Assembly: GCF_003073045.1 (NCBI RefSeq)
Contig: NC_037600.1
Coordinates: 13,020,515 to 13,084,514, forward strand
Reading direction: 5' to 3'
DNA from: Pomacea canaliculata
Taxonomy: Eukaryota > Mollusca > Gastropoda > Architaenioglossa > Ampullariidae
Length of the DNA: 64,000 nucleotides
Part shown: one piece after another, positions 8,997 through 45,200 of the stretch
How the letters are laid out: every line of letters begins with the position of its first letter
How positions within the stretch are numbered: the stretch's first letter is position 1
Translations under genes and position numbers: made by a program
Notes under the pieces: generated by a model
What the model was told of the DNA's origin: nothing
Seen by the model: only the letters and a program-made list of their open reading frames with translations
Database searches by the model: none

Positions 8997-9164
8997 AAAT
9001 CTGTTTGAGTGTTCTGATCATTTGAACATGAATCTTCTATGCCACCATGTAAACTTTCTTCGCAAGCACTTGAGCAACCAAAATCTGTTTGAGTGTTCTG
9101 ATCATTTGAACATGAATCTTTTATGTCACCATGTAAACTTTCTTCCCAAGCACTTGAGCAACCA
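8997..9164 (-). repeat. 84-bp tandem duplication inside the transposase gene
   Basis: Two adjacent copies of an 84-base unit, 8,997-9,080 and 9,081-9,164, differ at only a few positions. Because 84 is a multiple of three, the minus-strand frame is kept and a 28-residue peptide is duplicated (SCSNDQNTQTD, then GCSSACEESLHG). The near-identity suggests the duplication is much younger than the surrounding frame damage, or that it is kept similar by conversion. Confidence 0.9.
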
Positions 9165-9654
9165 AAAACACTTTCACATATTTTTTCTTCCTGGCTTGTC
9201 TCACTGCTGATTGATTTTCGCTTCTTGCTTGCAGCAGGTGAGTAGGGACGGATGCATTACTTCTTTTGCGAGACACAAGCCTCGAATACCTGTTTTTCGA
9301 AGTCTCAGCTTCTGAGCAAGTACTTGATCGCTCATGTCCAAGTGTAGAGTGGGAAGCCACGAAGGCTGTTCCGGAAATTCACATATGCTGGCTTTCCTAG
9401 ACACAAGAATAAAACAACCCTATGAATTACATCTTTGTGATATTAACTACAAAAAAATAATAATAATCAGCACTGAAACAAAATAAACCAAATACACGTC
9501 TAAAAAGAAAAATAATGAAGTAGAAATAACATTTTTTATCCTCTCTCTCTATAGCTATAGTTTATTAGTCGTGGTCATGAATAATGAAAGTCTTGTTTTG
9601 ATGTTCACTCAAATCACGTGAACTGTCACCAACCTACAATGAAGAGAATATTTA

Positions 9655-9939
9655 TCACAATGTGTACAACATGCAGAACAATGTTAAATACTTTAGCAAT
9701 TTGGAAAAAGTCTGGTTTCTTACGCCAACAAAGTGTTTCGAACAGATAAGTATTTTGTTCCACTTCTCTTCTGTCGTAATATCCTCTCGGTAAAGCAGAC
9801 GACGTTCTTCTGTAAGTTTTCTTGTTTCGTCGCCTTGGTTCAAAAATAATTTTGGGTATCTTATGAAAGATACATCTAGAGGAACATTTCGTTTACTGCA
9901 GGGCTTGTTTCCGCATCCTTTTATACCGCAGACGACCAT
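9655..9939 (-). pseudogene. THAP zinc-finger exon of the transposon
   Basis: Starts at ATG 9,937-9,939 (minus strand): MVVCGIKGCGNKPC, then VSFIRYPK, and ends with WNKILICSKHFVG. This fits the THAP C2CH pattern, with two early Cys, the Phe-x-x-Tyr/Phe-Pro block, the conserved Trp and a Cys-x2-His pair. THAP domains bind the terminal DNA of their element. A splice-donor-like GGC|GTAAG follows the Cys-x2-His, so the frame beyond about 9,720 is probably intron; the AVPF-type motif would be in a later exon. The annotated end includes this read-through tail. Confidence 0.75.
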
Positions 9940-10397
9940 GATAACCGATCAGTTGCCAGCAAGCTTCCGTAACTACTGCTTAGTAGGGAAAGAAAAATGG
10001 CCGCTGAAGCAGCTCGCAAAAACTGATGACGTCACGTGAAAACCACCCAACAGCCTCACACACATACATTCTCTCACAGTCTCACTCGATCCTTCGCACA
10101 CACGCGCACACAGAAATACATCGAATCAAGTCCTCTCGGGTGGTGGGGAATGGAATCTTCGTATAAACGGTGCTACGAACAATGTTCTGCAATGTTAAGT
10201 GAAGAAATTACGTTTAGCAGACGATGCATAAGGTAACCGTTTGAACGACATAACATGTTGACGGCCTTAGACTCATTTACGACTACCCAAACATCCAATC
10301 AAAAGAGACGACACAGACCGCTTTGCTACAGATCGCTTGGGTGACAACGACGCTGTTGTTGCCTTACGGGAGAACACAAGCTGCAACTCTCAAGACA

Positions 10398-12425
10398 ATG
10401 ACTATGGAAACAGAAAACCAAGAGGGAGAAAAAGAAGCATTGATTGCGAATACCAATATCGTAACGCACTGCATCTACAAAAACGATCTGGCGAGACTTA
10501 TTAAAAGTTTTGAAGACGAAACAGATCCTTATAAGGAAACCATTGCTGAACTAATCAATGAGAGAGACGACAATGGAAAGCTACCTTTAGATCTCGCTGC
10601 CTGCCTCGGACGACTAGAAATCTGTCGTGAACTACTTAAACGTGGAGCAAACATCGCAAGCATTTCAGAGAATGGCATGTGTGATGTCTCACAACCTGTG
10701 TGTGCTTACTAATTACACGCTCTTGCACCCATCTGCAAGTTTACAGTGTTTACCTGTCTAAACCATATTTAATATGCTTTGAATATAGAGTTAGATATAT
10801 CACACAAATCTAGCTTTCATCATACTGAACTCTCCCTCCAGACTAGTCTTATAAACGATTATCTTTAATTTGAGAATATATGATTTGTATCAATGTATGA
10901 AGCATGATAAATTGTAAATGGATAAAATAAATAATTCGTGTTTATGCTGTGCTATTTGTCCAGGTTACAGTCCTTTGCATTATGCAGCTGCATGGGGTCA
11001 CAGTGAAGTTCTCAAACTTCTAGTTACTGCTGGTGCAAATGTCCAGCAGAAGAATGTTCATGGAGAATGCCCACGAAACACTGCTGCACGTTATAACAAA
11101 AAAGAATGTGTGAATTTTCTTGACTGGGCAGGTTAGTACATTCTATGTATATATATATATGTGTATGGGTGAGAAAGGAGATGAATAGAACTGTACAGAT
11201 ATGTTTTTCTTAGTTGTTAAATTCACCTCTTTTTTGTTTGTTTGCTATTATAATTATAAGTTAATGTTTCAGCTCAGATCATATCATCCATCCATTATTA
11301 CTAAAACATTTTGGTATAGTTGTTAAATAGAAAAAGTGGCCAGAACTTGGTAACAAAAGCAAACTTCTTGGCATTAGAGAAATGCAAAAGGAAGGATGTA
11401 ATAAAGGTTGAGGATGTGACCAGCATCTGCTGTGGGTATCTTCTGTATTAGCTTGATGTACTTCTTATAATGTAACTAATGCTCTCACATAAGTAGCAGT
11501 GGTTTGCCCTGTTAGATTTAGATTGAATTTAAACAACTGAGGAAAAATCTTGATGACTGGCATAGCATTGTCTGCATCACATTTCCAACCTCTTTTCCCT
11601 TCTTGGAAGAGGTTTTTAAAGATCTCTTATGGACACTTTACTGTAAAAAAAAAAAATCCTTTGTGAAGGCTAAGGGAATTAAAATGTGTGTGTATGTGTG
11701 TGTAATTTGTTAAGTTTATATCAGAAAACTTTTTAGTTTATAAAAGATATCAAATTTAAATGCCAATGATTATCTGTTATTTTAGGGGCAAGGACATCGC
11801 TACTTCAATTCATCAAACACTGTCAGGATTTTGTTACTGATGCTGACAAAGGACCTGGGCGTCTTACTAAAGATGAAAAGGTTTGTGCTGAAAAATTTCT
11901 TAATATTTTGCTTTAAAGATAAAATGTTGATCTGGAGATAAATTGAATTCTAAACGATAGCATTTGCTAGATGTTTTTGAGAGTTCAAGAGAAGTAGCAT
12001 TAAAAGTGGTTGAGATATCTGTAGTAACAATGATGAGAATGATTTAAGCCAATGAAACAGTTTTACAGGCGCCATTGTAATTATTGAATAAAGTTAAAGA
12101 GTAGAATGGTGTGTGGGTGTGAGAGAGAGAATTTCAGAAATAAACACAGAAATGGACACAGAACCACAAAGGAAGAAGACTTTATGCATTGTCATTTAAA
12201 CTACTTCTGAGTGTTATGTGATTCTTATTATTTTTGTCTGAATCAAGTTAGTTTTGACCATGATTTTTTGACTGAATTCCACAGCAACTGATTGTGTTGT
12301 CCTGCAAAGAGAAGACTGAATGGCTTGAAGTCACCAGCAGTCCAACCACAGAAGAGCTCCTGTCTCATAAGAAAGCTTTGGAAAACATCGTGGCACCAAT
12401 ATTTCTAAAACTTTCACAGTCTTAG
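10398..12425 (+). CDS. ANKRD45: Ankyrin repeat domain-containing protein 45 (ANKRD45)
   Basis: Four coding exons: 10,398-10,674, 10,964-11,131, 11,786-11,880 and 12,285-12,425, total 681 nt, 226 aa. The N-terminal part has KNDLARLIKSFEDETDPY, the signature that identifies ANKRD45. Two ankyrin repeats follow (GKLPLDLAACLGRLEICREL and GYSPLHYAAAWGHSEVLKLL), then CVNFLDWA, then a C-terminal helical part ending KKALENIVAPIFLKLSQS. Vertebrate ANKRD45 is associated with cilia and cell division; that role here is inferred from homology. The first ATG in frame is 10,398; another lies at 10,404 with a better +4 G. Exon 1 joins exon 2 through a GC-AG intron (GCATGT donor at 10,675), needed to give ...ENG|YSPLH in phase. 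The other introns are GT-AG. The gene converges with the SelJ-like gene downstream. Confidence 0.93.
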
Positions 12426-13890
12426 TTTTGTTGCTGTCCTTTGTGTTTTTATCTTAAAAAGGAACTTGTACACAGACATTCAGACACTGGTGTATGCAGG
12501 TTACTAGTGTTGCCTCCTTTGAGTTCCTGGCAGAATCAAATATTTTTAGCCACATCTCCACCTGTTTTATATTCAATTCCTCACCTCTTACTATAAATGA
12601 CATCTTAAAAATGCTCACACATCACAAATATGCACCATGCATTGCTTTTGCAGAATATTTTTTCTGAAGGTTAAAGACTGCAGTAGTGCCTTGTCTAGTG
12701 AGAGATATTTGTAGTTTTCTTCTACATGTCTGAATCCAAGCATTAAACCATTCCCCCACAACCAGCCATTAAAATTCTTGAAAATTGTGTTGTTTATTGT
12801 TTTTGTTCTTAAAAATGATATGCCATAGTTTAAAAATTAGGTTTGAGTTATATTTCACATTTATTTCTATTTCTTGAAGAATTAATTAACCTGTTCAGGG
12901 AATATCTTGATGTATCACATTATCTAACATTAAAGATATCTTTAAATTTATGCATTCAGAATGTGCATAATGTTTTAAACTTCTGAGACTATTGAAATAA
13001 TGGACATTACGACTAAGAAAAAGATAAAGTGGTAGAGGTTGAAATATTATATACTAGTCTGCATGTATATAACTAGGTACGAGTGCACAGGCGAGGTGAA
13101 TGTTGAAATATTCTTGTTTTTGTTGGATGAACATCCCATGCACCATTATTCCAATCTTTTATCCTTCAAAAAATAGAACATAAATTTGCTGATTGGTCAA
13201 CACTTAGATGTCAACAGATGAATTTACAAGATAAAACAGTTATCTACCAATTTTCCTCTGTATCATTATTAATGTAGAGAAAGTCTATCATTCAACATTT
13301 AAAGACATAAACAGCAAACAATGCAGAACTCTTCATATAAAAAAAGACTAGAAACCTTCAGCATATTTAATATTTTTTTCTTTCAAGTAAGCAGTACAGT
13401 CAGTGACCAAGCTACAACATCATGCATTGTTCCTCACAGAATTTTGAAACAAATGCAATCATAAAAACTTTCATTCACTGGATGTACAGCTAACTGTTAG
13501 AAGAACTAAATATTATCAAATTTATCTGTTTAATCACATGCCTCTTATGCCCTCTAACAAGTAACAAATGATTTTCTAGTAAACCATGCAAATATGCTGT
13601 AATGAAATATTATTATATAATTTTACTTAAATATAGTAAATTAAAATCTTTTGTTTCTTGCTTGATTTTTAGAATTCAATGTATTTTGTTTATGATTTAA
13701 ATCTTGCATCATTTAGATATGTTACTTTACAAAACCTTTTATTGACACTCTGATAGAAGGAAAACTTTACATTCCAGAAAAAAGAACCACTCACTGGAGA
13801 TTTCAGCATGTATCCACATGCCTTAGCAGATAAAAGTTAAGTGACTGGTGTATTCAGTTCACAGCATCCAGATATGAACTCAGGGCATGT
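12426..13890. other. Convergent 3' interval between ANKRD45 and the SelJ-like gene
   Basis: AT-rich, without open frames of note. ATTAAA at about 12,742 and 12,768 could serve ANKRD45 (+). On the minus strand AATAAA lies at 13,738-13,743 and is the best visible polyadenylation signal for the SelJ-like gene, implying a 3'UTR of about 1.15 kb. Confidence 0.5.
13738..13743 (-). promoter_or_regulatory. AATAAA polyadenylation signal, SelJ-like gene
   Basis: Canonical hexamer on the minus strand, about 1.14 kb after the stop codon at 14,884-14,886. No earlier canonical hexamer was noticed in the 3' flank. Confidence 0.45.
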
Positions 13891-14410
13891 TATTATGTAG
13901 TAATAAGACTGCTGGCAGTGGGTGTTGCCCTTGGTATCCACTGAGGGAAGGTTTTGCAGCCATGATGTAAATGGTTTCCTTAACACCTCTCTGTAACCAC
14001 TGGGTCTCGTGCTCTAAGATGGTGCCATCACCTGGAAAGAAGATATGTTTGCTATTGTGCTCATGTTACCGTTCCAGTGAAAATTCCATGTTCTTTTGAT
14101 ATTAGTTTCAATTTTCCCTCACATATGCCTGGATACAGCTGTTGCACTCAGATAATGAATGGCACTTGACTAATGCAGATTGTCAGTCTTGTCTTTGGGA
14201 ACCACTAGTCTGCTGTGGAAGGTGGTGTACAGCTTGGCATGGACAGTGACCCTGATCTTCCTGGTTTTACGGGAGATGGCCTGTGTGACACTTTTGGTGT
14301 ATATGATGGTAACATACCCATGCGACTGGGTCTAGCTGGTGGCCCAGAGGTGGGGAGCAGTCTTAAGGCTCCAAGGCAAGTTTCATGTCCATTTGGGGTA
14401 GCCTGAAATG
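13890..14410 (-). mobile_element. Fragment of a GIY-YIG-bearing retroelement, Penelope-like
   Basis: The minus strand has decayed coding blocks in the order expected for the C-terminal part of Penelope-like elements: FHSRLVVPKDKTD (compare LVxPKDKT just before the GIY-YIG domain), a degenerate CNSCIQAYVREN (compare the YVGET motif), and GDGTILEHETQWLQRGVKE, then IYIMAAKPSLS and HPLPAV (compare the WFxRGVKEAI...PSLNR tail). Frames are broken and only the nuclease end is left. It lies inside the predicted 3'UTR of the SelJ-like gene in the same orientation. The family assignment rests on motif recognition only. Confidence 0.6.
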
Positions 14411-14442
14411 CTGAACACTTCCTTGAGGTGTTGAAGTTCTCA

Positions 14443-14492
14443 CTTCAGAGCTTCATTAAAACTTTGGGTCTGACTGATGGTCATTTTTAAAT
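14443..14492 (-). promoter_or_regulatory. Weak SECIS candidate in the SelJ-like 3'UTR
   Basis: The minus strand contains ATGAC, then CATCAGTCAGA, then a loop starting CCCAAAG, then TCTGAAGTG and AGA. That gives an ATGA/GA pair, an AA in the loop 15 bases after ATGA, and eight base pairs (CAT/GTG and TCAGA/TCTGA) broken by an uneven internal loop. The spacing is reasonable, but the helix is poor and the loop large. It lies about 400 nt after the stop. I scanned the rest of the 3' flank by eye and found nothing better. Confidence 0.2.
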
Positions 14493-14883
14493 TCTGTTAA
14501 TACTATATCACATTCCTTAATACCATTTGTAGACAATTAAAAAAATTGAAACTAATTTGGCTAAATGGAAATTTATATGTGACTGTGAAACAAATGAGCA
14601 ATAGGAATGGTAAATTGTACTGATCCTTGCAATGACAATTGCAGACAATTTTATATGATATACATCTTAAAAAAAGATCATATTGAAAATCTGTAACAAT
14701 TTTTTATAAATTATAGAGGAACATATTTGCTTATAATAGTTTGCAGATTTGCTAGCATAAAGGTGTATCTTGCATCATTCTCTGAAGTATTTTGTGCCAA
14801 GAACTACCTGGATAACATTGTTTCCATCTGAATGTCTGAAGGACATGTATTTGCTGCTGAAAGTAGTAGAGTAAAATGTTCTT

Positions 14884-17800
14884 TTATGGGATGATTTTTG
14901 TCAGGTGTTTGGCCAGATCTAAGATCTCAGGACATATTTTAGTCTTCTCTTTCCAGTCATCTGGAATGCTTTCCAAACCAAACTGCAAGATGAAATTGAA
15001 ACAAAGGGTATACACACATATTCAGAGAGAGAAAAATATTGTGTGCGTATATATATATATCCATGTGCATATGTGTGTTGTATTCTTTGTCTGCAAGCAG
15101 TAAAGTTTCATAATTACAACACAAATAAGTAACAGCTTGAGAAAATGCATAAAATATTGTCATTCTTGGAAGCATGACAGGCATTTTTTTTAATCCTCAG
15201 AAAGAATAAGGTATTTTTCAGTTAATAAAAATGCAAACAACTATTTTGTAAGAAATGTATGATGACAACACAGATGCATTAATTTTAATGTTCCCTCTAT
15301 GATTGGTGTCCTTTGATATTTAAGAAAAAGCTAGTAGTCCTTTCCTCTTCAAGGATATTCAGCAACTTCATTTCTTTTGTATCATGACTGTAATTAATTT
15401 CAAATACACTTTAAACCACAGTAATAAAGAATTTAAAAAAACAGTTAATCTTATTTTATAATGGAAGGAATCTTAAATACAGGTAAAATGAGTACCTTAG
15501 GTGAATGCACGAGATTTACAACATGTGCACTGACCTTAGCAGCAGTGCAGGCACCTACGAAGCCACTACGGATGCATTGCATCCACCAATCTTGATGGTT
15601 CTGCGAATGCCTTCCTTATAGCCTGGAGCAGTAACTGCACCATGCAGGGCAGATTGGAAGGATCCAGGCAAATCTAGTGACAGCAAGCAGACAAACAAAA
15701 CAATGTAAGATGCAATGTCGTAAGGCTACTTCAAATGCGAGATGGTTCAGTTTACTTTAAGATTCTAATTTTTGAAATCTGATTAAATACTTACTTTTCG
15801 TTTGTCAAGAAACATGTTGTATTATAACTCCATTACATATGTGTATGGTTTCCAAGGACAAGAAAAAGGAGAAAGAAAAAAACCCCGAAAATTTTAAAAC
15901 AAACAAAAATGTGTATACAATTTAATTACGAAAAATTTTTAAAATAAATGTTAAATCATGAAACACATGAGTTGTCTAGTGAGTAAGAAAGTACAGCTCT
16001 TTGTGAGATAATTATTAGGGTAACATGAGTTATTATTACTAATTGTAGATACATGTGAACCATCACTATAGAAAGTCTTAAGTCGGAAATCTGAGATTTT
16101 GCAAATTGTATATTTTAAAATGTACAGGTTCTGACCTTTCTTTTGATACTAAAGTTGTTCTTCTAGTCCTAGAATTTAGTAAGTTATAAAGGTTTGAAGT
16201 GTGCAAGTACAGTGATTCAGAGTTGACCCTGATCACCTTTCTGGACCTCTAATACAAAACTGCTCTGTGTGACTTAAAACTCATTTCATGGTGGTGGCAC
16301 ATACAAATACATGCAAAAATACAAATGCATAATTATGTACACGCATTCTCCCCCACAAACAAATCATCCACCTCCAAAAAAGAACACACTCTTATATGCA
16401 AGTATACAAGTACATACACACAAACTTTGGAAAAAAAATGTTTGAAAAGCCTAAAAAAATATAATGATCACCTAGACTACCAAAGAAGCATTAAAACATA
16501 AATATCTAATGGTCAAATCAAGAGACAGAGCATGTTCTTACGTCAGTTCTTTTGGAAATTCTTAGTAACTGCAGAATGGTGATCAATGGACGAGAGCTTC
16601 TGTACTTCTCGAATAAATCCTGCAACAGTCTGGTCAAGTTCCTGTGGATTATTGCGCCGAGAATTGCTCAAGTCAGATAACACTGCATTCAGAGCATTTG
16701 TGTTTGGTCCATGAAGAATGAACTGCTCAAGGATTCTGGGTGGAAAAAAATTTAATGATAAATGAATAACAATGACAGAGAAAACATTTCATTTAGTAAT
16801 ATTATTATTTGTTTTCTTCAGCTTTGAAAAAAGAGAGTTAAAGATATTAAATTAATAAACAACAAAAATTTAAAACTATAAGAAAAATTATTCGTTTCAT
16901 TGGTAGGGTTATCAGCAAAACTGAACAAAGAGGCAAAGAGGTAAAGAGGATGACAAGAACCGACAAAAGATATCACATAGAGAAACTGGCAGATGAAGCA
17001 GAAAATGCAGCAAGTAAAAATGACCTGAAGACACTGTACAAGATAAACAAACAGCTAAACAACGGGTTTAAGAACAGTGATGTGCCAGTGAAAGACGTGA
17101 ACGGTAATGTCGTCGAGGGAGAGGCAGGAAAACTACAGCGCTGGAGGGAGCATTTTGAGTCAGTTCTGAACAGACCAGATCCCCCTCAGCTTGCAGACAT
17201 CCAGCCAGCAGCTATAGACCTTGACATCTGCACAGACCCACCAAGCCTGGAAGAAGTGACAGCAGCAGTCAAGACAATGAAGAGCGGCAAAGCACCAGGG
17301 GCAGATGGGAATAACAGCAGAGATGTTGAAGCAGACGTGAATGTGACAGCTCCCAAGCTGACTGAAATCTTCAGGCAAATTTGGGAATCAGGGCAGGTCC
17401 CTGTTGCGTGGAAGACAGGGCTCATCTTCAAGTTACCAAGAAAGGAGATCTTGGAGACTGCAATAATTGGAGGGGCATAACACTTCTTTCCCTCACCAGC
17501 AAGGTCTTCAGCAAGATTGTTTTGTCAAGACTGACGGCAACTCTTGAGAAAGACCTCCGACCACAGCAAGCAGGATTTCGCCCTGGGCGATCCTGCTCCG
17601 AACACATCTTCATTCTGCGACAGATTCTGGAGCAGAGCAACGAATGGAACACACCGCTGTACATCAATTTCATCGACCTGGAGAAGGCTTTTGACAGCAT
17701 CCACCGCGAGTCCTTATGGAAGATCCTGAGGCATTACGGAGTCCCTGCAAACTTGTTCAGGTCATTGCAATGCTGTACATCGATTTTCAAATCCCAGGTT

Positions 17801-20800
17801 GTCTGTGACACAGACTCACAGACCCCTTCAACGTCAGTACCGGGGTGAAGCAGGCTGCATTCTGTCGCCGTTCCTCTTCATCCTGGCATGGACTGGATCA
17901 TGAAGACTTCCACCGACAGCGAGAGGAGAGGCTCAGATGGACATGACTATGACAGCAACAACAGCACTGGAAGACTTGGACTTTGCTGATGACATTGCCC
18001 TGCTGTCACACCGCCACAAGACATGCAGGAAAAAACAAAGGCCTTCTCAGAAACAGCTGGAAACCTTGGGCTTGAAGGTCAGCACAAAAAAGACTAACAG
18101 TATGAGAGTGAACGCCAGAGTCCAAGACAGCATCAAACTAAATGGAGAAGAGATTGAGGAAGTTGACAGTTTCACCTATCTTGGGTCCAAAATGTCAAAC
18201 ACTGGGGATGCGGAGGTGGAGATTCGAGCCCGACTGGCGAAAGCCAGTCAGGCCTTTGCCTCACTCAGGAGCACATGGAAGGCAAAAAACATCAGCCAGA
18301 AGATCAAGCTGAGAATCTTCAAGTCAAATGTGATCAGCACCCCCTTTACGGATCAGAATCTTGGAAGATGACCAAAACCATCAGTAACAAGCTTGACGTC
18401 TTCCAAAACAGATGCCTCAGGCGCATACTTAACATCTTTGGCCAAACACCATCACCAACGAAGAACTCCACCGAAGAAGTGAAACCGAGTCCATCACCAC
18501 GCAGGTTCAACGAAGGCGTTGGCGATGGATTGGACATGTGCTCCGCCAGCAGACAGCAGACCTTTCCAGAGTCGCCCTACGATGGACTCCAGACGGCCGA
18601 AGAAAACGAGGCCGCCCAAAGGAAACTTGGAGAAGAACAGTGGAAAGGGAGATGAAAGGAAAGGGCTGGACATGGGGTCACCTAGAGCGTGTTTCAGCCG
18701 ATCGACATCGGTGGCGGACTCTGGTTGAGGCCTTATGTGCAACCTGATGCACAAAGAGGAATAGATAGATAGGTAGGGTTATCAAGCTAATTCTACTTCA
18801 ACAACTTATTCTTTTGAGTTTGTTTCTTCTTGAACTATAATTCAGATTTATTAATGTACTGGATTTCAATTTCATGACATTATGAATTGTTCTGTTTTTT
18901 GTACTTAACAGCTCGTGTCATTGTGACTTTAGGACTTGATTTCATCTTTTAAAATACATTGCAATGCCCAGATGGTTTGATATCTAACCTGGCAGCAGCA
19001 AGGCCTATGGTGACAGGGAGATCATTGCTCTGTGTTACCCTCAAGACCTCCTCCACTCGACTAAGCATCTCAGGATGACCAGCATAAAGTGCACAGACTG
19101 GCACCATGCGTAGCACACAGTCAATCTGCTCATCACTTTCTGATCCTGAAAGAGACATCCCAGCCAACAAGCACAATTATCACTGTACACACAAATGTTA
19201 TCAGCTGCTTCTTTATCTAGCTTCATTTAGTAATTGTGCATTCTTAGATGATAGTGCCTATTTTAGTCTGCTTATCCAAATCAGTGTAAATAAGCTAGGG
19301 GACACCTATGGTGGCAAATTAGTGCAGGTCCAGTCCATATTTATCTTATTTTCACCATGGTTAACTTACCTGATTCCTCTTTGCCAGCTTCCATGTTGCT
19401 CAAGAAATGTTTTATGCTGCCATTTCGCCAAGGCCTGTGTATTGGAAGTGTTGGTTTTACATCTGAAATCACAAACATAGTATTTATTTATTCACTGTAT
19501 TACTCAATCAAGGTTCCACACTGTGCAAAATCCTTTGGCTGAAACATATTTAATGCATCTCATGCTAAGGTATCCTTGTCCTATCAATGTGTATACTGAT
19601 CCTTTAATGCACTTGTAGGACTATACATATATGTATACACACATAAACTTCAAAGTATGTAATTCTTTAGAGAATGTACTTTTTTTGAGTAACTAATTCC
19701 TTTCTTAGAAAAGTAGATAGCTCTTGAGCAGAAAATTTTCAAAATAACTGCAAGTCTAGCTGTTGGTCAGTACCAAAGGCTCAGACCCTACTAAAAGAGG
19801 CATTTCAGTGTAATATGATTGAGAACTATGTACAGTATTCTCAAATTAAAATGGTTTATCTGACACGAAAAAATTTTATCAATTTTATCACCAACCCATC
19901 TTAACTGAATTTACTTTTGTGTAATGTAAATACAATCAAAATTGTTGGAGATTTTTCCTCTACAAAGAAGTACTAAATTTTGCATCCCTGTACTGCTGAT
20001 TTTTCTCATGTTTCACTTACTGATTTTGTCCTCTTTCCCAACCACATAGCGGGCATTCTCTGGATCTTCATAGGATGATTGTGGTCCAAAGAAATCATAC
20101 GTAAGTTTTTTCAGTGCCTCAAGATTTACACCTGAAATAAAAATTCACAGTTCAAAAACTTCAGATCATGCTGGAAAATTTCAAGAAAGGGGATCTTACT
20201 GTACATTGCTTTACCCACAACCATAACTGTCACAGCTTGACATAAATAAAACATTTTATGAACACAACGTTCAGAAAAGAATGAAAAATGTATTAGCATT
20301 ACCTTTATTCTCTACTAGAGATTTCAGGATGACGTATGCTTGGTCTCCATAGCAACTGAATGATCCAGTAGGTATGCAATAAAATGGATTCTGTGAGGGT
20401 TCCCAGAATTCTACTTCCTCTTTTTCCCCAATAATTCTCTTCAGCTTTTCCTCATCATACAGCCAATGCAAGGGCTGGGCTGCAATGAGGTATAATTATG
20501 CCAATGTACTAACACAATTACAGAAGTGTGAAATGCCAATATTGTACACTTTAGATGTAGATCTCATGCTTGTGTGTAAAGACACTACACTTCTGAGTGA
20601 TTCATTTCCATATTGTTAATTAATAAACAATATATTAAAGAGAATTTTGTACGTAGAATACTAGTGGTTTCCTGAGAATATAAACGCTTAGACCCGTGTG
20701 AAGAGAAGATCTAGCTCAACAAACTCCCCTTCTTCTTGCAATGCAATAGATTATATGCAAACATATAATTATCGCAGCATTTTAACTATTTTTTTACGAA

Positions 20801-21849
20801 AATGAAAGCATTTTGTTTTGCAACTCAAGAAAGATGATGAACAGTTGAACATTTTGAAACTATATATAGTATATCACTGGATTTGTACTGCTTTGATCTC
20901 TGAGCGGGTTTCAGCCAATCGACATCCGTGGCGGACTCTGGTTGAGGTCTTATGTGCAACCTGATGCGAAAGGAGAGGAATCGATAGATCGACAGATCTC
21001 TTCGACATCTTGTTAACTCTTTTTGGTTTTTCAAAGAGGCAATGAGCAGAAAAAAGACTTCTACCTATTAGATCTGTTCTATGACTTGACTCATGTTGTA
21101 GAAAGCATTGGCAACCTGGGGTATCAAGCTATATCTTCACTGTATTATTATTATTATTTCTCTAAAAAAAACTATACCAGCTATAAATGAAGCTAATAAA
21201 CTACACAAATTACATGTATATTTATTTATTACAACGTCTTTTCTCCTCTCACTTGTTTGTGTATTTACCTCGGAGTATTTAATTGGTGTTTAATTGTTAA
21301 ATGGCAAATAATGTGAACCATCGGAGATAATAAGTGAGCAATATATATAGATATTCATACAGTTTTATATGCTGTAATTGCACAGATCTTAAAGATACTT
21401 GGCTATCACTGCTTACTACTACAGCTTATCAATTCTAGCTCAAATAATCTTGCCTGAGGACTCATTCTGAACTATAAACTGACCTCAATAAAATCTAAAA
21501 AATATAACTGCCAATTAATTATTTATTTGCATATGTGCGAAGAAATTGAGCTGTCTCAAAAAACTGAAGAGAGTTTCATAAGTTAAATGCTTACAAGGTC
21601 ATAATGTTACATTTGTTTGCTTCACACATGATCTACACAAATCTATCCTCTGCCCCATCTCCGATCGAGTGAATGACTCGGCAAAAATTAATGTATTATT
21701 CTTTGCCTAACCTTGAATGCATTGAGTGTGATTAAAATTATCTCAAAATTTCTCTTAGGTTTAACTTTGAAATAACTTGCAATACCTGCTGCGTCTGCAA
21801 CTAATGCTCCAACTACAGCTGCCACTCTTCTATCGGTGATTGCCGACAT
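14884..21849 (-). CDS. J1-crystallin / selenoprotein J-like ADP-ribosylglycohydrolase-family protein, in-frame TGA
   Basis: Eight coding exons on the minus strand: 21,849-21,786, 20,479-20,303, 20,131-20,021, 19,462-19,370, 19,145-18,989, 16,735-16,542, 15,673-15,535 and 14,982-14,884. All have GT-AG borders with matching phases, giving about 344 aa. Family marks in order: TDRRVAAVVGALVADAA, AQPLHWLYD, FWEPSQNPFY, SCYGDQAY, RPWRNGSIKHFL, DEQID, LPGSFQSALHG, IGGCNA and GLESIPDDW. The family is related to ADP-ribosylglycohydrolases; members are jellyfish lens J1 crystallins and fish selenoprotein J, whose enzymatic activity is unproven. Codon 265 is TGA (16,543-16,545), at the Cys/Sec position just before HLPGSF. 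In exon 7 one base is missing near 15,571 (GG where GGG is expected on the plus strand); without it the frame hits TAG, with it the exon reads on in phase into exon 8. A LINE sits in intron 5. Start: first ATG, 21,849. Confidence 0.88.
16089..16315 (+). repeat. Dispersed repeat, copy 1 (unclassified)
   Basis: About 227 bases that match a second copy at 23,344-23,575 in the same orientation. Shared blocks include GAGATTTTGCAAA, TTTTAAAATGTAC, AGTTATAAAGGTTTGAAGTG and TTTCTGGACCTCTA, ending in ACATGCA. No coding capacity and no obvious tRNA promoter boxes. It lies in intron 6 of the SelJ-like gene. Confidence 0.8.
16543..16545 (-). other. In-frame TGA, probable selenocysteine codon
   Basis: The exon reads ...NFQKN-TGA-C and the donor GTAAGA follows directly. 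The leftover C joins AT of the next exon to give His, so the protein reads KN-U-HLPGSFQSALHG. Fish SelJ, as I recall it, has U-x-LPGxFQ at this position and J1 crystallins have Cys. A TGA at precisely this site, in an exon otherwise fully open, fits recoding better than random decay. Confidence 0.7.
16915..18771 (+). mobile_element. 5'-truncated RTE-like LINE with 13-bp target-site duplication
   Basis: Encodes the reverse-transcriptase half of a non-LTR retrotransposon: PSLEEVTAAVKTMKSGKAPG, then NNWRGITLLSLTSKVFSKIV, AGFRPGRSCSEHIFILRQ, FIDLEKAFDSIHRESLW, VKQGCILSPFLF in a shifted frame, and LDFADDIALLSHR (the ADD active site). Later blocks are FTYLGSKMSNTGDAEVEIR and a C-terminal KRGRPKETWRRTVE and HRWRTLVEALCAT before the stop. 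The apurinic endonuclease is missing. Several frameshifts break the frame (for example about 17,430, 17,850, 18,340 and 18,440). The 3' end is a short GATA-rich tail. GGTAGGGTTATCA occurs at 16,902-16,914 and 18,772-18,784, a perfect 13-bp target-site duplication. It sits in intron 5 of the SelJ-like gene, opposite to its transcription. Confidence 0.92.
20897..20996 (+). mobile_element. Very short 3' fragment of the same LINE family
   Basis: About 95 bases match the last part of the LINE at 16,915-18,771 (TTTCAGCC-ATCGACAT, then GTGGCGGACTCTGGTTGAGG, ACCTGATGC and a GATAGAT-like tail) at roughly 90 percent by eye. GATCTCT on both sides (about 20,895 and 20,995) may be the target duplication of an extremely truncated insertion. 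It lies in intron 1 of the SelJ-like gene. Confidence 0.8.
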
Positions 21850-22935: not shown

Positions 22936-25900
22936 ATGGATGAATGCTGCGGATCAGATCTGCACCTGCAGTTGTGCAGTCTACCTGACAGTATATTGCT
23001 GGAAATCTTTTCCTACCTGCCAGTTCAGTCACTTGGGCGGATTGCTTGTGTCTGCTCCCACTTCAGCAAAATTGTCAGAGATAAACTGCTGTGGAAGGAT
23101 ATATTTCACAGACGTTTTAGAGTAAGACTGCTTTTAGATTTCTCATATCTGGTTTGGCATCCAAATAGTAATATTGAATGATGGGCAAGCTAATTTTTAA
23201 ACTGCTCATGCCTTGTGTATATTTTAAAAAAGTGGGATAGATTGGGTCTCATTGTTTAGGGTACAAGTGTGATTGAATACAGTGGAAAGCCAGCAGCAAA
23301 TATTTTTTACTGTTTTATATAAAATGTGACTTGCCACCACAGAATGAGATTTTGCAAACTGTGCGTTTTTAAAATGTACTGGTTTTGACCTTTTGGTTAA
23401 CACTTAGTTGTTCTCGTAATCCTAAATTTAAGTGAGTTATAAAGGTTTGAAGTGTGCAAATCCGATGGCATGAAGTTGACACTCATCATTTTTCTGGACC
23501 TCTACTACAAAATTGCTCCGTTCGACTTAAGACTCATTTTTTGGTGGCGGGTCACATATACATGCATAATATTTCTTCTGCTATGGCTAAAATGTTTCAC
23601 TTAAAATGTACCGTTGGCAACAATTGGTTAATAGTTTTAACCTTTAGAATGCAAATAAGTTCAAAAAAGAATTTTTAGTTACATATCTCTGCTGGGGTGT
23701 TGGTCCACTTTCCTATTATCCATCATCTCATGATGATCGTGATGATGATAATCATTATTTATCATCTTTAACATGTTGAAGCATTATGGTTATATTTCAA
23801 CTGATTGATAGGTACCTCGGTCAAGATCTATCCGGCCTGGAGCTGAATCATGGCAGGAGGAGTGCCAGAGGCTTATTGATCAAACACCCAAAGTATTATG
23901 TGAGGAACTAACAAAGCACAAGGATCAAGTTTTGCATATTAGTTTTTCTCACAATGGCCTTATGTTTGCCACAAGTTCCAAAGATGGCAAAATTATGGTT
24001 AGTATGCAGTTGCCAGTCAGAAATATTTTCAGATGGCTACAGGCACTTCTGTTTGTTGTTATTAAGTGCTGGATGGCTGGTTGGTTATTTGACTTTCCTC
24101 TTTGCAGGATGTAAAAAAAAGTTTTTATTCAGGTAGGTCACTTAAAACAAAACTGTTGCTTATTTCTTTGCTATCCATCTTCTTGAGTCTGACATTCGAA
24201 AATGGAAGCAGCTTCAGCTGACAGGAAGCTTCTGAATTAGTAAAGTGCATATAGTTTACTGTGAAAATTAGCTTATTCAAACTGAAAACACTCAGTAATG
24301 TTAATTCTGAGTTTGTGTGTTGATCTTTGATAATTATGTCATCTTATCAGGCATAATGGCATTTACAGCAATAGTTCTGGGTTCCAGGTGTGGAATGTGG
24401 ACAGAAACTGCTCACTTCGTTTTGCTTACAACATGACCAAAGAATTTAGTTGGAGATACACACAGTTTTCTCAGTTCAACAGGACTGACACTCTTCTACT
24501 GGTGTCTGGTGTGCATTATGGCAATGCAAACACATCTGGCGAAATTGCAGTATTTGACTTGCAGGGTACGAGCATATTGACATAGCGTAGTAAAGTTGTA
24601 GCAAGCCACTAGAAATGACAATTTATAAGCAGCCTTGGCAGTGTAGGTCTTGAAAACATGGCCATTGTGTCTTAAAAATGAACTTTTTCTTTGGTACCTA
24701 TAAACTATGAGCAGTGAACTATGAGTAGCTGATTTGGACATGGCATGTGGAAATGCAACGTGCAGCCTTCTTTTTCCATCACCATTTTATAACTTTCATG
24801 TATAATTCCCACATTGTGAGGAAGCTGAAAAATGCACAATACAGTAGGTCATGTATGCATATATTTGCTTTTTGTGAGCAATAGAGATAGCACTTATTTC
24901 AATGGATTTATATTAAAAGAAAATCAGATTTTGTGAAGACTTTTTTTTTCGGCCAACAGAATTCGAGCCTCAGTGCCGTGTAGTGAACAAACCATATGAT
25001 GTGTTTGGAACATGGTATGACAACAGCCACCTACTTTCTGGAAGTCTGTACTGGACAGGTCATCTGAACTCTGTCTCAGCCTTATGGCTGAACAAAGTAT
25101 GATTGATTGGACTATTTATGTTGATTTTCAGAAGAGAAATTATTTTGAGTGTAGCATTACTGTTTGCTTAACATTGCTAACATACTTTCTCTGATTTTTT
25201 TTTTCTCTCACCCACCCACCTTTGTGCATGTAGCTTATGAGTATATGCACAAAAAATCTCATATGCATACATACAAGAAAAAATAGGGCTTTTAAATTTT
25301 ATTGATAAAATGTAAGCATATTTTATATTACTTTATCTGTAATTGATTATAAAGTTGGCAAGTATGTAGAACCTATTGAAGTAATCAACATACTCATGGT
25401 GAATGTCACACAGGCTAATCAAGCACTAGAATGTGAGAGAGAATCGGTCACGATGTGCCTGTACCGGTTCCAGAATGTTAATGCCAGCTCTATCCGCACT
25501 ATCATGGTGGCTGAGTGCCCTTCAGAGAATGAAAGCAGCATGCTAGCTCAGCTTTCTCCTTGGACCTGTGTTGCATGCAGCCAGGAACACTTGGAGGGAG
25601 CCTCAAAAGAATTGTCAACAAATGTTAATCAGGACTGTAGCAACAACAATGCCACCCAAGAAGTCTGCTCACAAGATGACCTCCACTTTCTGAGCAGTCT
25701 GAGGGAAGGAGACGAAAGTTTCAAGACTGGGCCACTCAGAAAAAGGATGCTACACCATGAGCAGTGGTCAAGCACAGATATAGGGCTTAAGGATGGACCT
25801 GACCACAGTGTGGATGAAGACAGTGACTTCCTACTTAAGAGCGAAGACACTCTGATTCGTGAGTGGGAAAAGATAGAGATGGACAGCTCTGTCGAAGAGA

Positions 25901-28900
25901 GCCAATATGTCTTCCCTCACAAAAGTTCTAGGGCAGGTGATGTGTATTTAGATGTGAAGGATGACTTTTTCAATGAAAGTGAATCTCTCGAACTGGAGGA
26001 TGCAGACTACCTGACCAAAATGGTCAACGATGTGCATCTCCCATCACATTATCCTTCTGCTTGCTGTGACATTTTGTTATCTTTGCATGGTGCAGGCTTA
26101 GATGTTCATGGTGCAGCAGCCCCTGGATCTTCTCCTAGAAATAAATATTGCTGCAGAGATTCAAGACAAAGGAAAAAGTCTCAGGATTACCATCCACAGA
26201 TTGCTGAGACAACAGAGCTTTCGCCTTTAGCGTCATTAGCGGCACCACTCTCTGAGGCAGGTACAGTGTCCTCAGATAACCATGCTGGAAGAATTCATGC
26301 ATACACTGGAAATCAGAGAAGACAGTGTCTCCAGCACTGAGAGACAAGCTTCTAATATTTACAATGGGGGAGGAGACTTACACTCCCCACCTTATTGGCA
26401 TCAAGAGAATTCGTGTGGAGGACGTCATTGGGTTCAAAAACTCCAGGGAAAATCTGATTAGTCCTGATGGGGAAGTGAGATTGCTGCCTGATGTAGACCA
26501 GAACTTGCAAGGAATGGACAGGCCAAAGGATAATGTGGACCATGTTATTAATATGCATGGCCATATTGTGGGCATGGCATTGTCTCCTGACCACAGGTAT
26601 TGTCATATATGATTTAAAGCCTTGTTTGTCCACTCTGCTTGTAGATAAGTTTCCTCTTGTATATGCTGTTTAATAGAATTCAGTACTCTTATTCTGTGGA
26701 TACATTTGTGTGTGTTTGACTGTCTGTTTATTTAAGATTTTATACCTTATATTTGGAATCTTTAAAAAAGTTTTCTTCAAAACAAATTTTAAATTTATGA
26801 TTAAAGTTGATAGAGAATTTGTTGATGATTTAACACATTGGCAGCTTTGCGACTGCATGTGGTGCAGTTTACAGCCTTTTCACAGTACTTCAGTCATAAG
26901 CTATACACAGTATATTGTGTTTTAGTTAAGCAGCATGACATATGCAGATGGGTTGGAATACCATCATAGGTTTGCCTGAACATTTTTTAACAGTTTCACC
27001 CCTTAACTAGTGCATACACTGGAAGTCGGAGATTTCCCTTAACTAGGGAACAAGATGGTTAATGGAATTGTATAGCTTTTCTAAATCTCCCCTTCTCTTT
27101 TGAAAAAAAGTGTCTAAGCAATACAGTTCATGCAGTTAACTGATATTTCTGAATTTGAAGAAAACTCTCAAGGAGAATTTGGGGAAAAAAAGACCAATTG
27201 TGGAAGAGCACATGACTAATGAAAATGATGGTGAGAGCAATGGACATCAATAAAAATCCTAAACATCCGGCCGTAAAGTTGTTAAATTGACAGTGAAGAA
27301 CATATTTCTAATTATGCATAGAGTGATCAACAGCAAACAGTCCAAACTAATTTTTCGTTCTTTGCCACTAAAATTCATCACCTCACCAGGTTTATATAGC
27401 CTTATCAACTAGCTGCCATGAAAAGATTGAGCCTTTTGACGTTGACTCTTCATAAATCAAGAAACTGTACAAGTTTTGAACAGTCAGACAAATATTTCTG
27501 TACAGCAAACAATAGATCAGGCAAAGAGATTTTAAACTCTAAGCCTACCTAGATCTAAAGTAAACAGAAGGAAGAAGAACAGAACTCTGCTGCACGTCTG
27601 GTGCTTAGAGTTAGGAAACAGGACCATGCCACCCTTCTCCTTCATTTTCTACTCAGGCTTCCCACCCAGTACAAACTGTCCGTGCTGTGTTTTAATTTCT
27701 TTCCTAGCAACTGCCCTGATTTTTTCTCTGAACTGCTCTTCCCTTACGTCCCAGCTAGACAACTCTGCTTCTTGTCTGATGATCATTTTCTTACTCTTCC
27801 TGCCACCAAAACAACAACATATAGCCAAAGGATTTTTGGTTAATGTGCAGCGAAACAACGGAACTCTCTCCCTTTCCATATCCACCACCTACGCACTATT
27901 GAATCCTTTAAATGTGCAATAAAAACGCATCTCTTCCGTAATCATTACTCCTAACAACCTTTCCCATAATTCTAGTCCTTTTTCACACCCTTCCTTTTGC
28001 AATATGTTACTCTCAGCTCTTGTTCTTGTTATTTGATTCCTCTTTGTGTTATCTGTATTTGATTTTATTCTTCGTTTAGTACAGTTGTTTATTCTTTTAT
28101 AGCTCATTTGTTATTTGTTCATGTTTTTGTTTTTCTATTGCAAAAGCTTGACTTTGCACCTGACTGTCTGCATGACATACCCCATGAGATCACCAGTGTG
28201 TCATATTTTTTTTTGCTTTTATTTTTGTTTCCTCTATCTCGTTTTTTTATTTTTAAAAGTTGGTCCAAAAGCAACTTATTCTACCGAAGATAGAAACACG
28301 ATAAATGTCACTGCTGCTGACCTATTTAATTCTTTGTACAACTTAAACTTATAAAAAGGTTGAATTTGTAATCATTACTACTGATTTGATGGCATGCAAT
28401 ATTGTGATCAAACTAAAATGTGAACATTTTCCCAGGTATTTGTACGTCAACAGTCGGCAGTGGCCACAGAACTACTCCATAGAGAAGGTGCTGGAACCTC
28501 CCCCCATAGCGCAGGAGATTGATATCCATGTCATTGACCTTCTTACCCTAAAAGAAGTGGGCACCATCATGAGATCACACAAAGCATTTACACCCAATGA
28601 TGAATGTTTCTTCCTCTTTCTTGATGTCAGTGAGCATTATGTGGCAAGGTGAGTTCAGGCTTTATAGGGAAGATAAAAAACAGACTTACACGTTACGAGC
28701 TTTTCCTGGACATAAATATCAGGTAGTGAGACCAGTTTTATGCTTCTTAGAAGAATGATGAATGCATTTAGTCACTGCAGGCTGCTCTCATTTACGTATT
28801 AGTTGAAGGTGTCATAGCCAGATTATTGTCTATATGACACAGGCATCCAAAACCTAGGATGCATTCTGCAAGAATAATAATTGACTTTGTAAAATGTATT

Positions 28901-35300: not shown

Positions 35301-37499
35301 CATCTATTTCATCTATATGGTTAAACAAGGTCAGATATCTTTACCTCCCCTTTCTAATTATAGGGTTGGTGCAGACATATGCTCAACAACCAAAAAAATG
35401 GAACTTGGTAGTACTGGTGAGTCTGCATGCTAGATCTGTTCTTGCAGCTGACACTCATAATTAAATTTTAAGATCATGATGTCATGGATGATATGTGTAG
35501 GATGTTTATGTTAGAACCTTATTAGCTCTAGATTATAAATGCATTTTTCAATTCCCATCATGAAAGTATTTCTATTCTAAAATGTTTTTGGCACAAGCTA
35601 TTAGTGTTTTAAATGTATCCTTTTGGTATGTATAATTTCTATAATTAATATTATAACATTTAATACTTTGGTGCAGATAAGTGGGACTTCCTCAGTCAAA
35701 ACAGCTGGCGTGGCAAGTTGCCTGTATCACTTCCAGAATGTGAGCAGTGGCTGCATTCGCACTATCTTGCTGGCTGACTGTTCTTCCCCTCGACTGCCTT
35801 TGTTGACAACTGCTGAATGTGGTCAGAGTAGACACAGTGCAAGCGACTGTTTTGAAAATAGCTGTGACAAACGGTGGCCTCTGACCTTGGAAGACGAGTT
35901 ACACAACACCACACTAGGCATGGGATTTGAAAAAAAATCGAGTGACCATAGCAGTGGTGGTCAAAAAGCTGCTTTGGTGCCAACATTTGCAGGGTCTTTT
36001 ATGCAGTCTGTTTCATGTGAACATGTAGAATCATTTGAAAGTGCATTGGATCAGAAACAAACAGGAAGAACTTCAGCCGTGCAAATTTCCACCCATGAAG
36101 GCAAGCTGTTAGTATGCTCTATGAGCTTAGACACATATGCACCACATGTGATAGGCATCAAACGGTTACAGATGGAGAAAATTAAAGACAGCATGTCAGC
36201 AGGCGAGGGATGGGTTGAACGATCAGATGGTGTTCAAAATCTGCCAGATATGCATGCTGACATGGCTATAAACCATCAAATTGATTCCATGGATCATGAG
36301 ATCAACGTACATGGACGTATTGTGGGCATGGCATTATCCCCAGATCATAGGTAAGAAGTTGAAAAGTTTGGACAGCAGTTGAGAAACATTAATTATGTCT
36401 TACAAGTAAAATGTGATAATAGCTTTAGCTCTGTGGTAATAATCTTAATTACAGTACTACAACTTCAGGAAATAGTTTAGTTTTTGCTATTTTACAGGTT
36501 TCTGTTTTTCAACATTCGAAAATGGCCAAAACACTATACCATTACAGATGTGATGGAGCCACCACCGATGTCAAAGAATATGGAAGTTCGTGTTCTTGAC
36601 CTTCAATCTCTGCAGGAAACAGGCTCTGTGTTTAGTTCACATAAAGCTTTCTCCCCCAACCATCAGTGTTTCTTCGTCTTCTTGGATGTCAGCAAGCACT
36701 ATGTTGCAAGGTGTGCTACAAATGCAAATCTTTAGCCTTATCATCCCAAAATGACTACTCAGATTCCTCCATACATCTAACTTATTAGTCATTTCATGAA
36801 GTAGGACCAAGAAACCATAAAAGCAGTCATATATATATATTCACATTAACCTTTGACTGAGAATGGGAAAGATATAACTCATTGTGGTGTTGGTAGAGAC
36901 ACTAAAGCTGTGGAAACAGGAAAAAGCCATTAAAATGTATATGCCTCTCCTTAACATTTTAAAAAATAATTTCATTTTAATCCATGTTTCTTGAATTTTA
37001 AAAATGTAAAGAATTCAATGGCATAGTTGCCATGGATACAAATGAATGTAAGTGGTTCCCCATGTGTAGGACATGGCATAATGGAAGGTAGAGCACCATC
37101 CTTTACCTTTCCTGATGAATACCAGGGATAAGTGTACTTTGCAATCAGCTAAAATGCTAGTTAGCAACAGATCCAGGCTACTGAACCTCCCCCACATTTT
37201 ATTGACAAACAGCTGTATAATATTTCATGAACAGTTCTTTGGCAGCAGAAAGAATGTTTCTCAAAAGTTAAATTTGCATATTTTTGTTGTTACTTTGTTT
37301 AAACAGTGGTGCTGAAAACAAGCAGGGCTACCTGTGGGATCGTGACTATAACGTATTTCTTGGTAGCTTCCTCCACTCGGATGTTGTCAGTTGTGTGGCA
37401 TTCAATCCATGCAATGAGGAGATGCTAGTTACTGTTGGTGATGATTTTCAAATCAAGGTGTGGCGGTCACGGAGAGCAGTTCGTCAGAAAGCAAACTGA
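32357..37499 (+). CDS. F-box/WD40 protein 5-like, tandem copy B
   Basis: Seven exons, 32,357-32,539, 32,951-33,130, 34,491-34,668, 35,193-35,329, 35,677-36,350, 36,498-36,710 and 37,307-37,499, all in phase (1,758 nt, 585 aa). The F-box is NLPDNILLEIIAYLPVHCLG. WD40 segments: VLHVSFSHSGHIFATSSKDG, VFSQFSMSDTKLLVSG, YGAWYDDNHFLSGT, LVCSMSLDTYAPHVIGIKRL, INVHGRIVGMALSPDHR, FFVFLDVSKHYVARSGAEN, KQGYLWDRDYN and GDDFQIKVWRSRR. The intron positions and phases equal those of copies A and C, and exons 3 and 4 have the same length as in copy A (178 and 137 nt). It is a divergent FBXW5 paralogue and a likely substrate adaptor of a cullin-DDB1 ligase by homology. The linker is shorter and less acidic than in copy A. 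Start: ATG at 32,357, in the same place relative to the F-box as in copy C. Confidence 0.92.
33640..33860 (-). pseudogene. Possible glycosyltransferase (MGAT4-like) fragment
   Basis: In intron 2 of FBXW5-like copy B the minus strand has an open stretch reading GGNLTVFVGVGPRFSFLYLH, then VLHKLVRQILLDFES, HEKTIVLVYFDAGDPNLTEE and VLKRTFYK. The order (hydrophobic strand, short helix, then IVLVYFDAGDP) resembles the start of the catalytic domain of MGAT4-type N-acetylglucosaminyltransferases. It ends in stops and has no clear neighbouring exon. It may be a gene fragment, a retrocopy remnant or coincidence; the assignment is tentative. Confidence 0.3.
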
Positions 37500-42200: not shown

Positions 42201-45200
42201 AGGCAGAGGGCAGCATTCTGCACCGTTCAACCTATGTTGGTTCTAGCAGCAGTTGTCCATGATGAGAATACATACTCCAGGTATGGCTGCACACTGCTTG
42301 TGCATACTGGCCTCAGTAGTCTGCTAATTGTGCCCCACTGGATTCCAGCCAGCATTTACATGATGACCATCTTCACAGCTCTGTTCACCATGCCGGTGAG
42401 GTGTGGTGTAGTATTATAAAATTATGTTTTTGCATATTTCTTATGTATGAACCATACATAAGAAATATGCAAAAACATAATTTACAGAATTTGCAGAACC
42501 TGCTCACTTAACTTTTCTGTAGTATCTGATATCAATTTTCTATGTTAATTCACTTGTCCATTATCTTCGATTTATTTTCTTGTTTAGATCAGGTATTATT
42601 TAATACACTTTAAGCACAGTTGCATAAGAAGTTGTTATTTGCTATTATTAATACACTTTTGATATTCACATGCTTGGTTTTGTTATTCAGGTCTGGAATG
42701 TTGGGAAATCATGCACGCTTAAGTTCTCACTGAACATGAGCATCTTTGGCTGGCAGCGCACTAGGTGCCCCAAATTCAACAAATCTGATACATTGCTACT
42801 GGTGTCTGGACCTACCCTCAGTTCTGGGGAGATTGCTATTGTGGACCTTGAATGTAAGCTTTAAATAATTGACTGCATATTTTGATGATTCATGTGCTAC
42901 ATTAAGTCAGCGATGTCATGTTGGTGATACTAGGAGCCAAGAAAATCTGCTGTGTGAACAGAAAAAAAAGTAAATTAGTAAAAATTTGTTTTTATTATTT
43001 ATGAACATAAAATGTGGATTTCTCTTGCAGTTTGGGTTCTTGTCACATTTATTTTTAACAATCCCAACCAGAAAAAAAGAAAACTTTTTACCTCTCACAT
43101 AAGATGTACTCCTACCAGCTGAACCCTTTCTTTCAGTGCCCAATGCTTAGCAACTCTGCTGTACAATTATGGTCTAAGAATTTACTGTTTGGCTTAGAGA
43201 AATCCTTGCTTTGTCTAATAGAAACAGGAGTGCATAGCAGCACAAACATCAAAAGGAGGTTGATTCTTTTGTCAATGTGTTTAAGTGATTGGTACCATCT
43301 GCAAAATGTTACAACTCTAGGTTGCATGTGAATGAAGTCCAGAATGACAAGGTTAAGGGATAAAAGACTAGTGAACATTTTTGCCAAATTTGAATTATCA
43401 TGAGCCTCTTGTTATCTTGTCTATTTTGCTTTTTTTTTTTTTTTTGGTGTGGGGATGTTTTAATACAGATCACTGCGTTCGTGCCACGTTCACAAATGAC
43501 CCCTATTGTGTCAATGGTGCATGGTACAATGACAGCTACTTCTTATCTGGTGCCTTGAAGGAGGTTGGCCTTTCGTTCATTTCATCTGTGAAAATGAACA
43601 AGGTTTGTATACAGCCTTGCTGCATTCCAGCGAATTGAGTTTCCATGTTTTTTGTTTTTTGTTTTTTGTTTTGTGGCATGGATATCTTTCAAGGTTTTAG
43701 CAATTTATTTTTAGTTCATTTTTCTTGGTTGTTTGCCAATAATCCTGCATCTTTTGGTTCAAGATATTTATTTTTGTATATTTGAAAGTCCTCTTCTTTC
43801 CCATTTTCATGTTACAGGTTTCTCAAGAATCCAACTCAGAAAATGTGGATTTGTACCATTTCAGAAATTCAGGTGGTAGCTTCATCTCCAGTTTTATAAT
43901 AACTGATCTGAACAATGCCTGTGATTATAGATTTCCTCAGGTTACTTCAGATGAAGCAAAAAGCTTGGGACAGTTCACACACAGTAGCACCCATTGTAGA
44001 AATAACTCCAGTGGTAAGAGTGAAGCCAGTGATTGCTGCATCATGGAGTCAGACATACAAAGAAAGATAGACACTGTCAATGGTGGCACAGGTGACAGAA
44101 TGAAGATAGCCTCACCTGAAGACAGGCTGCTTATTTTCAGCATGGGTGTAGACATGCATGTTCCTCATGCTGTTGGTATCAAACTCATGCATCTAAAGGA
44201 TGTTGAGATGGCACAGAATTGTCAGTTCCCTGCAAGGACCGTTGGTGAGGCACCACAACAACTGGAAGGACGAGCTGAGAAGCCAGACGACACCATTGAT
44301 CACGTTATTGACATGCATGGACGCATCATAGACATGGCTCTTTCTCCTGATCAGAGGTACTCAGAGCATAAACATTTTTTCTATGACCAATGACAGTGCA
44401 AAAAGAAAACCCCAACAGCAGACATGGCTAGAGTTATTTATTTTCTTCTTGCATACTTCATTTCCACTCGAAATGATCAGGAAATTAATGAAAAGGAGCA
44501 TGATCGCAATAATTATATGGATAATTTTCAACACATCAGCAAAAGCAAACTCTTGTTTATTTTTAACAGTAATTGTGTGTAAGGACCCATTGGAGACTAT
44601 TGTCACATAATCTATACTTTAAATAATTCTTACTGCCTTTTATTTATATAATACAGCTCATTGCAGTGACAACTGTAAGTCCTGATCACTCATAAGTTGT
44701 GATAATCATCGATTTTCAGGTATTTGTATGTGAACACTCGTCCATGGACACAACCCTTGCAGAAAACCAGGAATGTTCGAAGATCTTTCACAATTGCACA
44801 GGAAATCGAGATCCATGTCATTGACCTTTCAACATTTCTTGAAGTGGGTTTGGTCTTCAGGTCACACAAGGCGCACACTAAGGAGTATAATTGTGCCTTC
44901 CTGTTTTTGGATGTCAGCAAGCATTATGTGGCTAGGTGGGTGCCAAAACTTGACATGTAGTTGATTTGGGGAGAGCCTGAGGTATAGGGGATTAACGACA
45001 TATATCACACTATGGACAAAAATTTTGCATCAGCTGTTCTTGATTCATTACCTAGGACAGACATTTATAATGGTGACTCTAGCATCATTCTTTGGCAGAA
45101 CTAGAGAGTTTATTAATGCTTCATTTAGAACTGATGCAGTATGCTAAAAGTGTAAAACAAATTGCAGTGGTGATTTGTACCTCGCCCTAAGAGCAAAAAT

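Follow-up and report, generated by a model that had tools for sequence, protein, structure and literature searches.

A selenoprotein J gene with a probable in-frame selenocysteine codon in Pomacea canaliculata and its relatives across the molluscs

A minus-strand gene of eight exons was rebuilt from the sequence of the window, by which we mean the whole stretch of 64,000 nucleotides from the caenogastropod Pomacea canaliculata that was analysed here (Table 1). All seven introns are of the GT-AG type, and every modelled donor is the top-scoring GT within its own exon when scored with a simple donor matrix. Exons 1 to 6 provide 264 open codons followed by a TGA at codon 265, the first base of which lies four bases upstream of the donor GT at 16541. 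Exon 7 then starts with HLPGSFQSALHG, in which the H codon is split by the intron. The first-pass annotation of this DNA had reported the TGA at codon 265, a canonical donor four bases further on, the residues with which exon 7 resumes and a junction at 16542/15673, and all of these were recovered in the rebuilt gene. It had also described eight exons that rebuild a full-length protein; the eight exons and their GT-AG introns stood, but it had overlooked that exon 7 is one base short and that a TAG follows at codon 305. A wrong splice model as the source of the TGA was ruled out, since no GT of exon 6 scores higher than the donor at 16541 and the residues to either side of the TGA agree with those of relatives.

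Table 1. Features of the rebuilt gene and its downstream region (positions within the window)
Feature	Position	Strand	Basis
Exon 1 (ATG start)	21786..21849	-	sequence
Exon 2	20303..20479	-	sequence
Exon 3	20021..20131	-	sequence
Exon 4	19370..19462	-	sequence
Exon 5	18989..19145	-	sequence
Exon 6, ends 1 base past the TGA	16542..16735	-	sequence; donor 16541 is the top of the exon
TGA codon 265, Sec/Cys site of the SelJ/J1 family	16543..16545	-	sequence and relatives' alignments
Exon 7, 1 base short near 15572; resulting TAG at 15557-15555	15535..15673	-	sequence; frame intact in the close relative P0190
Exon 8, family C-terminus and TAA stop (frame of intact relatives)	14884..14982	-	sequence
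SECIS candidate: AUGA core at 13462, 13 bases to the start of the AA loop, 3'-side GA core	13409..13470	-	scan, shuffles and fold; Rfam silent in scans of 7,801 and 2,384 bases
ATTAAA, possible poly(A) signal 3' of the SECIS candidate	13366..13371	-	sequence

The database protein C0Q70_17957 of P. canaliculata (P0001), which has 264 residues, is 100% identical to rebuilt residues 1-264 and ends at the TGA. It contains the ADP_ribosyl_GH domain of the selenoprotein J (SelJ)/J1 subfamily (69.9 bits against a cut-off of 26.2), and its nearest relatives, both in the homology search and in the tree, are SelJ/J1 proteins. A genome-wide search with PF03747 returned 10 matches on contigs C1, C5 and C9 and missed the SelJ locus itself, so that it was uninformative on SelJ paralogues. 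A broken reverse-transcriptase element (16950-18655, plus strand) lies within intron 5, and its ORF at 17381-17848 matches RVT_1 with 63 bits. Elsewhere on the plus strand of the window, three ORFs (25396-26340, 35623-36354 and 43782-44393) are alike by eye near their starts, where they share an LYxFxN... motif, and have no Pfam match; perhaps they are exons of tandem gene copies. Two further ORFs (55867-56742 and 60488-61492) encode cysteine-rich proteins with a hydrophobic stretch near the C-terminus, also with no Pfam match, and the ORF at 10323-10712 matches the ankyrin repeat PF00023 with 25.1 bits (cut-off 21.1).

The position of the TGA was compared in 188 different relatives, comprising 105 proteins from a first search and 83 new ones among the best 120 of the 370 from a second search; end points and site residues were read from pairwise alignments to the rebuilt protein. 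Exactly at residue 264 ended 68 of the 188, and 8 more ended within a few residues of it. The exact enders include 20 named molluscs (Pomacea counted), the annelid Owenia, two amphioxus records, two starfishes, a coral and fishes. A sequencing error at the TGA itself was ruled out, as 67 other models of the 188 have this end point in common. The relatives running well past the site number 101, and Cys is aligned at the site in 51 of them, including algae and other distant relatives. W is found there in one (P0046), and the remaining 49 show a gap (27), Ser (8), Ile (4), Pro (3), Leu (2), Ala (2) or, once each, Asn, Val and Lys. In the printed alignments, relatives with a gap or a residue other than Cys seem for the most part to be gene models in which the site is skipped, because LPGxFQ or a similar motif comes next. 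The W of P0046 was not accepted as proof of a TGA in that relative, since TGG and a TGA translated under another table are both possible. Salmonids carry FPNSCGLPGSFQ, with Cys at the site by pairwise alignment (P0106). Nucella lapillus has two models with consecutive numbers (P0010, 264 residues, and P0189, 87 residues) that meet at the Sec site and appear to be one SelJ gene annotated as two. The name selenoprotein J already stands on two sea-slug database records. A scan of IMG/VR for DNA of the relatives returned none, and NCBIfam held no family for four SelJ proteins. Judged from these comparisons, the in-frame TGA is very probably the selenocysteine codon of SelJ.

Identity to the rebuilt protein before and after the site was similar in most of the 14 relatives compared, for example 52% and 54% in Aplysia J1C, 51% and 51% in Patella, 45% and 42% in Antedon, 50% and 44% in P0014, and 59% and 68% in P0046. 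The exception was a Batillaria model, with 75% before versus 60% after, from which the site region is missing. Three proteins, P0190 among them, were returned when the last 82 residues served as the query. According to the database annotation, the TGA would be a true stop and the product a 264-residue protein without the C-terminal part, and the end of C0Q70_17957, together with that of the 67 other models, fits this reading. It is nevertheless very improbable: conservation is about equal on the two sides of the site, the Pfam domain of the 264-residue protein is severed at profile position 210 of 287, and Cys is frequent at the site in full-length relatives.

Exon 7 has 139 bases, one too few to keep the frame, and the break falls inside the conserved GGCNASRxGFxGAC motif. 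The shifted frame runs into the TAG, and a different frame is needed to read through exon 8; besides the UGA, the assembled copy is interrupted at this point as well. No other lesion was found in the eight exons. The protein P0190, from a contig of 5,578 bases, corresponds to the same exon 7 together with flanking intron sequence in a very close relative. Here the frame is intact and 43 of 45 comparable residues are identical to those of the window; in the flanks, 10 of the 11 residues directly preceding the exon and 24 of 27 following it are identical, and the intron further upstream has diverged. Because exon 7 of P0190 is intact, the shift is, on this comparison, a recent mutation or an assembly error, and we infer that it is private to this assembly or individual. 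PMC11417965 describes a different P. canaliculata assembly.

If the exon-7 mutation is real, the copy would be SelJ by descent with a genuine Sec TGA but in decay, ending in a short wrong-frame tail. The base missing from a conserved motif and the TAG at codon 305 are what such decay would produce, yet we consider it unlikely, given that the lesion is a solitary one, that the very close relative stays in frame with 43 of its 45 exon residues kept, and that one-base gaps are generally known to be common in long-read assemblies. An alternative donor inside exon 7, just upstream of the lesion, would keep the frame at the cost of about a dozen residues, and by reading, a GT after codon 300 would join exon 8 in phase. 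However, this GT ranks below the top five in exon 7, all of them clearly outscored by the modelled donor at 15534, and splicing here would remove a motif that is retained in relatives, all of which makes this reading extremely improbable. A SelJ gene read through at its Sec codon, with the exon-7 shift private to this assembly or individual, remains our preferred reading.

To find a SECIS element, we used a scan pattern of RUGA, 9-13 bases, AA or CC, a loop, GA and a scored helix, the scores of which are uncalibrated on known SECIS elements. The first-pass annotation had pointed to 13,700-16,800 on the minus strand for this element. The minus strand of 13,700-15,000 gave only weaker candidates (13.5, 12.5 and 12.3, against 20.8 for the top match), and the candidate was found instead outside that range, at 13470-13409. 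It is the top AUGA/AA match, with a score of 20.8 at 13462; the next AUGA/AA match in the window, both strands included, scored 17.3. Counted against the candidate are two GUGA-type matches elsewhere in the window (21.3 and 20.5) and an AATAAA at 13743-13738, upstream of it. In dinucleotide shuffles of 12500-14883, AUGA/AA matches reached 20.8 in 3 of 2000 and 18 in 30 of 2000. Twenty stretches of this genome, each of 10 kb and one of them mostly masked, gave on both strands no such match of 20.8 and two that reached 18. The 105-base hairpin at 13487-13383 folds with -26.9 kcal/mol (z -2.21), and 4 of 200 shuffles were equally good. When a 151-base stretch chosen around the candidate was submitted to Rfam, SECIS_1 was the best of 4227 families and its AUGA, AAA and UGAU were aligned, at 18.6 bits and E 0.22, below the gathering score of 35. 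SECIS_1 was not listed in Rfam scans of 7,801 bases (9000-16800, E up to 10) and 2,384 bases, and a single 151-base control stretch gave no SECIS. Taken together, the hairpin at 13470-13409 is a good but unproven SECIS candidate, which the gene would use.

We then placed the protein in a tree of 48 proteins, chosen among the named ones plus the window, using the part before the site alone. Rows were labelled Sec when the model ends at the site or when the row is the window; 29 of the 31 Sec rows end there exactly, and Argopecten and Crassostrea within two residues. The window groups with Littorina, Babylonia and Nucella (support 99/95). The mollusc group of 22 rows (20 Sec, 2 Cys) was weak at 89/77, rising to 99/96 for the 21 rows without the chiton, and the group of molluscs, Owenia and the coral comprised 24 rows (22 Sec, 2 Cys) with 100/91. 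The same grouping of molluscs, Owenia and coral appeared, with an SH-aLRT of 94, in an earlier quick tree of 58 rows. Patella and Aplysia J1C account for the two Cys rows of the mollusc group, and Cys paralogues of scallop (two) and shark (one) branch outside the mollusc SelJ clade. Six Sec/Cys changes are needed by the tree, which does not distinguish gain from loss. The coral model (P0077, Paramuricea, on a 16,507-base contig) ends at the Sec site and stands beside an annelid on a long branch; it may represent an early Sec form, be misplaced or stem from contamination. By end point, a probable Sec form is present in a chiton, bivalves, a cephalopod, gastropods and one annelid, and from these comparisons Sec-form SelJ looks widespread in molluscs.

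The snail gene is like SelJ (SELENOJ) of ray-finned fishes and amphioxus in its family, its Sec site, the LPGxFQ after the site and the database models that end at the same residue. It differs in its mollusc host, in a SECIS that is a candidate and in the frameshift of the assembled copy, and the fish models of the first search are 50-52% identical to the snail protein before the site. J1-crystallin-like Cys forms (Aplysia J1C, Patella and the scallop paralogues), to which the cnidarian J1-crystallins also belong, share the family and the site but have a Cys codon instead of TGA. ADP-ribosylglycohydrolases (DraG, MJ1187 and ARH3) were 13-22% identical to the snail protein in alignments. The TDDT and GGDTDS of MJ1187, its metal-binding motifs, align with SCYG and GGCNAS of the snail protein, and Asp motifs for metal binding (TDDT-like and GGDxDT-like) were absent from the snail protein in this alignment. 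Because SCYG and GGCNAS replace TDDT and GGDTDS, classical hydrolase chemistry appears doubtful in the snail protein.

These results suggest, with a probability of about 0.85, that the gene is the P. canaliculata orthologue of SelJ and that selenocysteine is inserted at its UGA codon 265 by means of a SECIS in the 3'UTR. By descent, it is a genuine SelJ gene within the mollusc SelJ clade. The earlier proposal of a lophotrochozoan SelJ is well supported by the TGA on the Sec/Cys site, by conservation that changes little across this site, by the place of the gene in the mollusc SelJ clade and by the SECIS-like hairpin downstream. The mechanism of Sec insertion through SECIS, SBP2, eEFSec and tRNA-Sec is established. 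In P. canaliculata, the candidate hairpin at 13470-13409 would bind SBP2, which would recruit eEFSec with tRNA-Sec to the UGA; Sec would then be inserted at codon 265, and the ribosome would read through about 79 more codons to finish an ADP-ribosylglycohydrolase fold of the J1-crystallin kind. If the UGA were read as a stop, the junction of exons 7 and 8 would lie 140 bases downstream and the message would be sensitive to decay at low selenium. The TAG of the frameshift lies 20 bases upstream of the same junction, and nonsense-mediated decay would not be expected for it. Both predictions follow from the coordinates and the established rules of nonsense-mediated decay.

In the sources consulted, SelJ is narrowly distributed, and its role, as a crystallin or as a redox enzyme, is unsettled. 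Table 1 of a 2012 survey (PMC3473315) gives Sec SelJ as present in amphioxus and absent from the other five invertebrates, including the mollusc Lottia and the annelid Capitella. Vertebrate SelJ is described as confined to fishes in PMC3316567, and SELENOJ is reported also from algae in PMC7539508. Lottia and Patella are both patellogastropods, and a Sec to Cys conversion in limpets may account for the reported absence from Lottia, because its fellow patellogastropod Patella has a Cys form. None of the papers listed in the literature searches, which reached few subscription papers, dealt with mollusc SelJ. According to the title of one paper, molluscs have a selenoprotein P containing up to 132 UGAs.

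The wider scenario, in which Sec-form SelJ would be an old bilaterian gene with repeated Sec to Cys conversion (limpets, one Aplysia copy, salmonids and perhaps hemichordates) and P. canaliculata would now be losing it through a recent, real frameshift below an intact Sec codon, is in its entirety quite unlikely. The first-pass annotation had expected the gene either to widen the known range of SelJ or to represent an independent retention. The range is indeed extended, but the gene is not isolated, with the 20 named molluscs (Pomacea included) and Owenia ending at the same residue. SelJ itself was already known; the probable Sec form across molluscs and in at least one annelid was absent from the papers listed in the literature searches. 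Because many mollusc SelJ models are stumps of 250-270 residues or jump the site, the range of SelJ has probably been underestimated.
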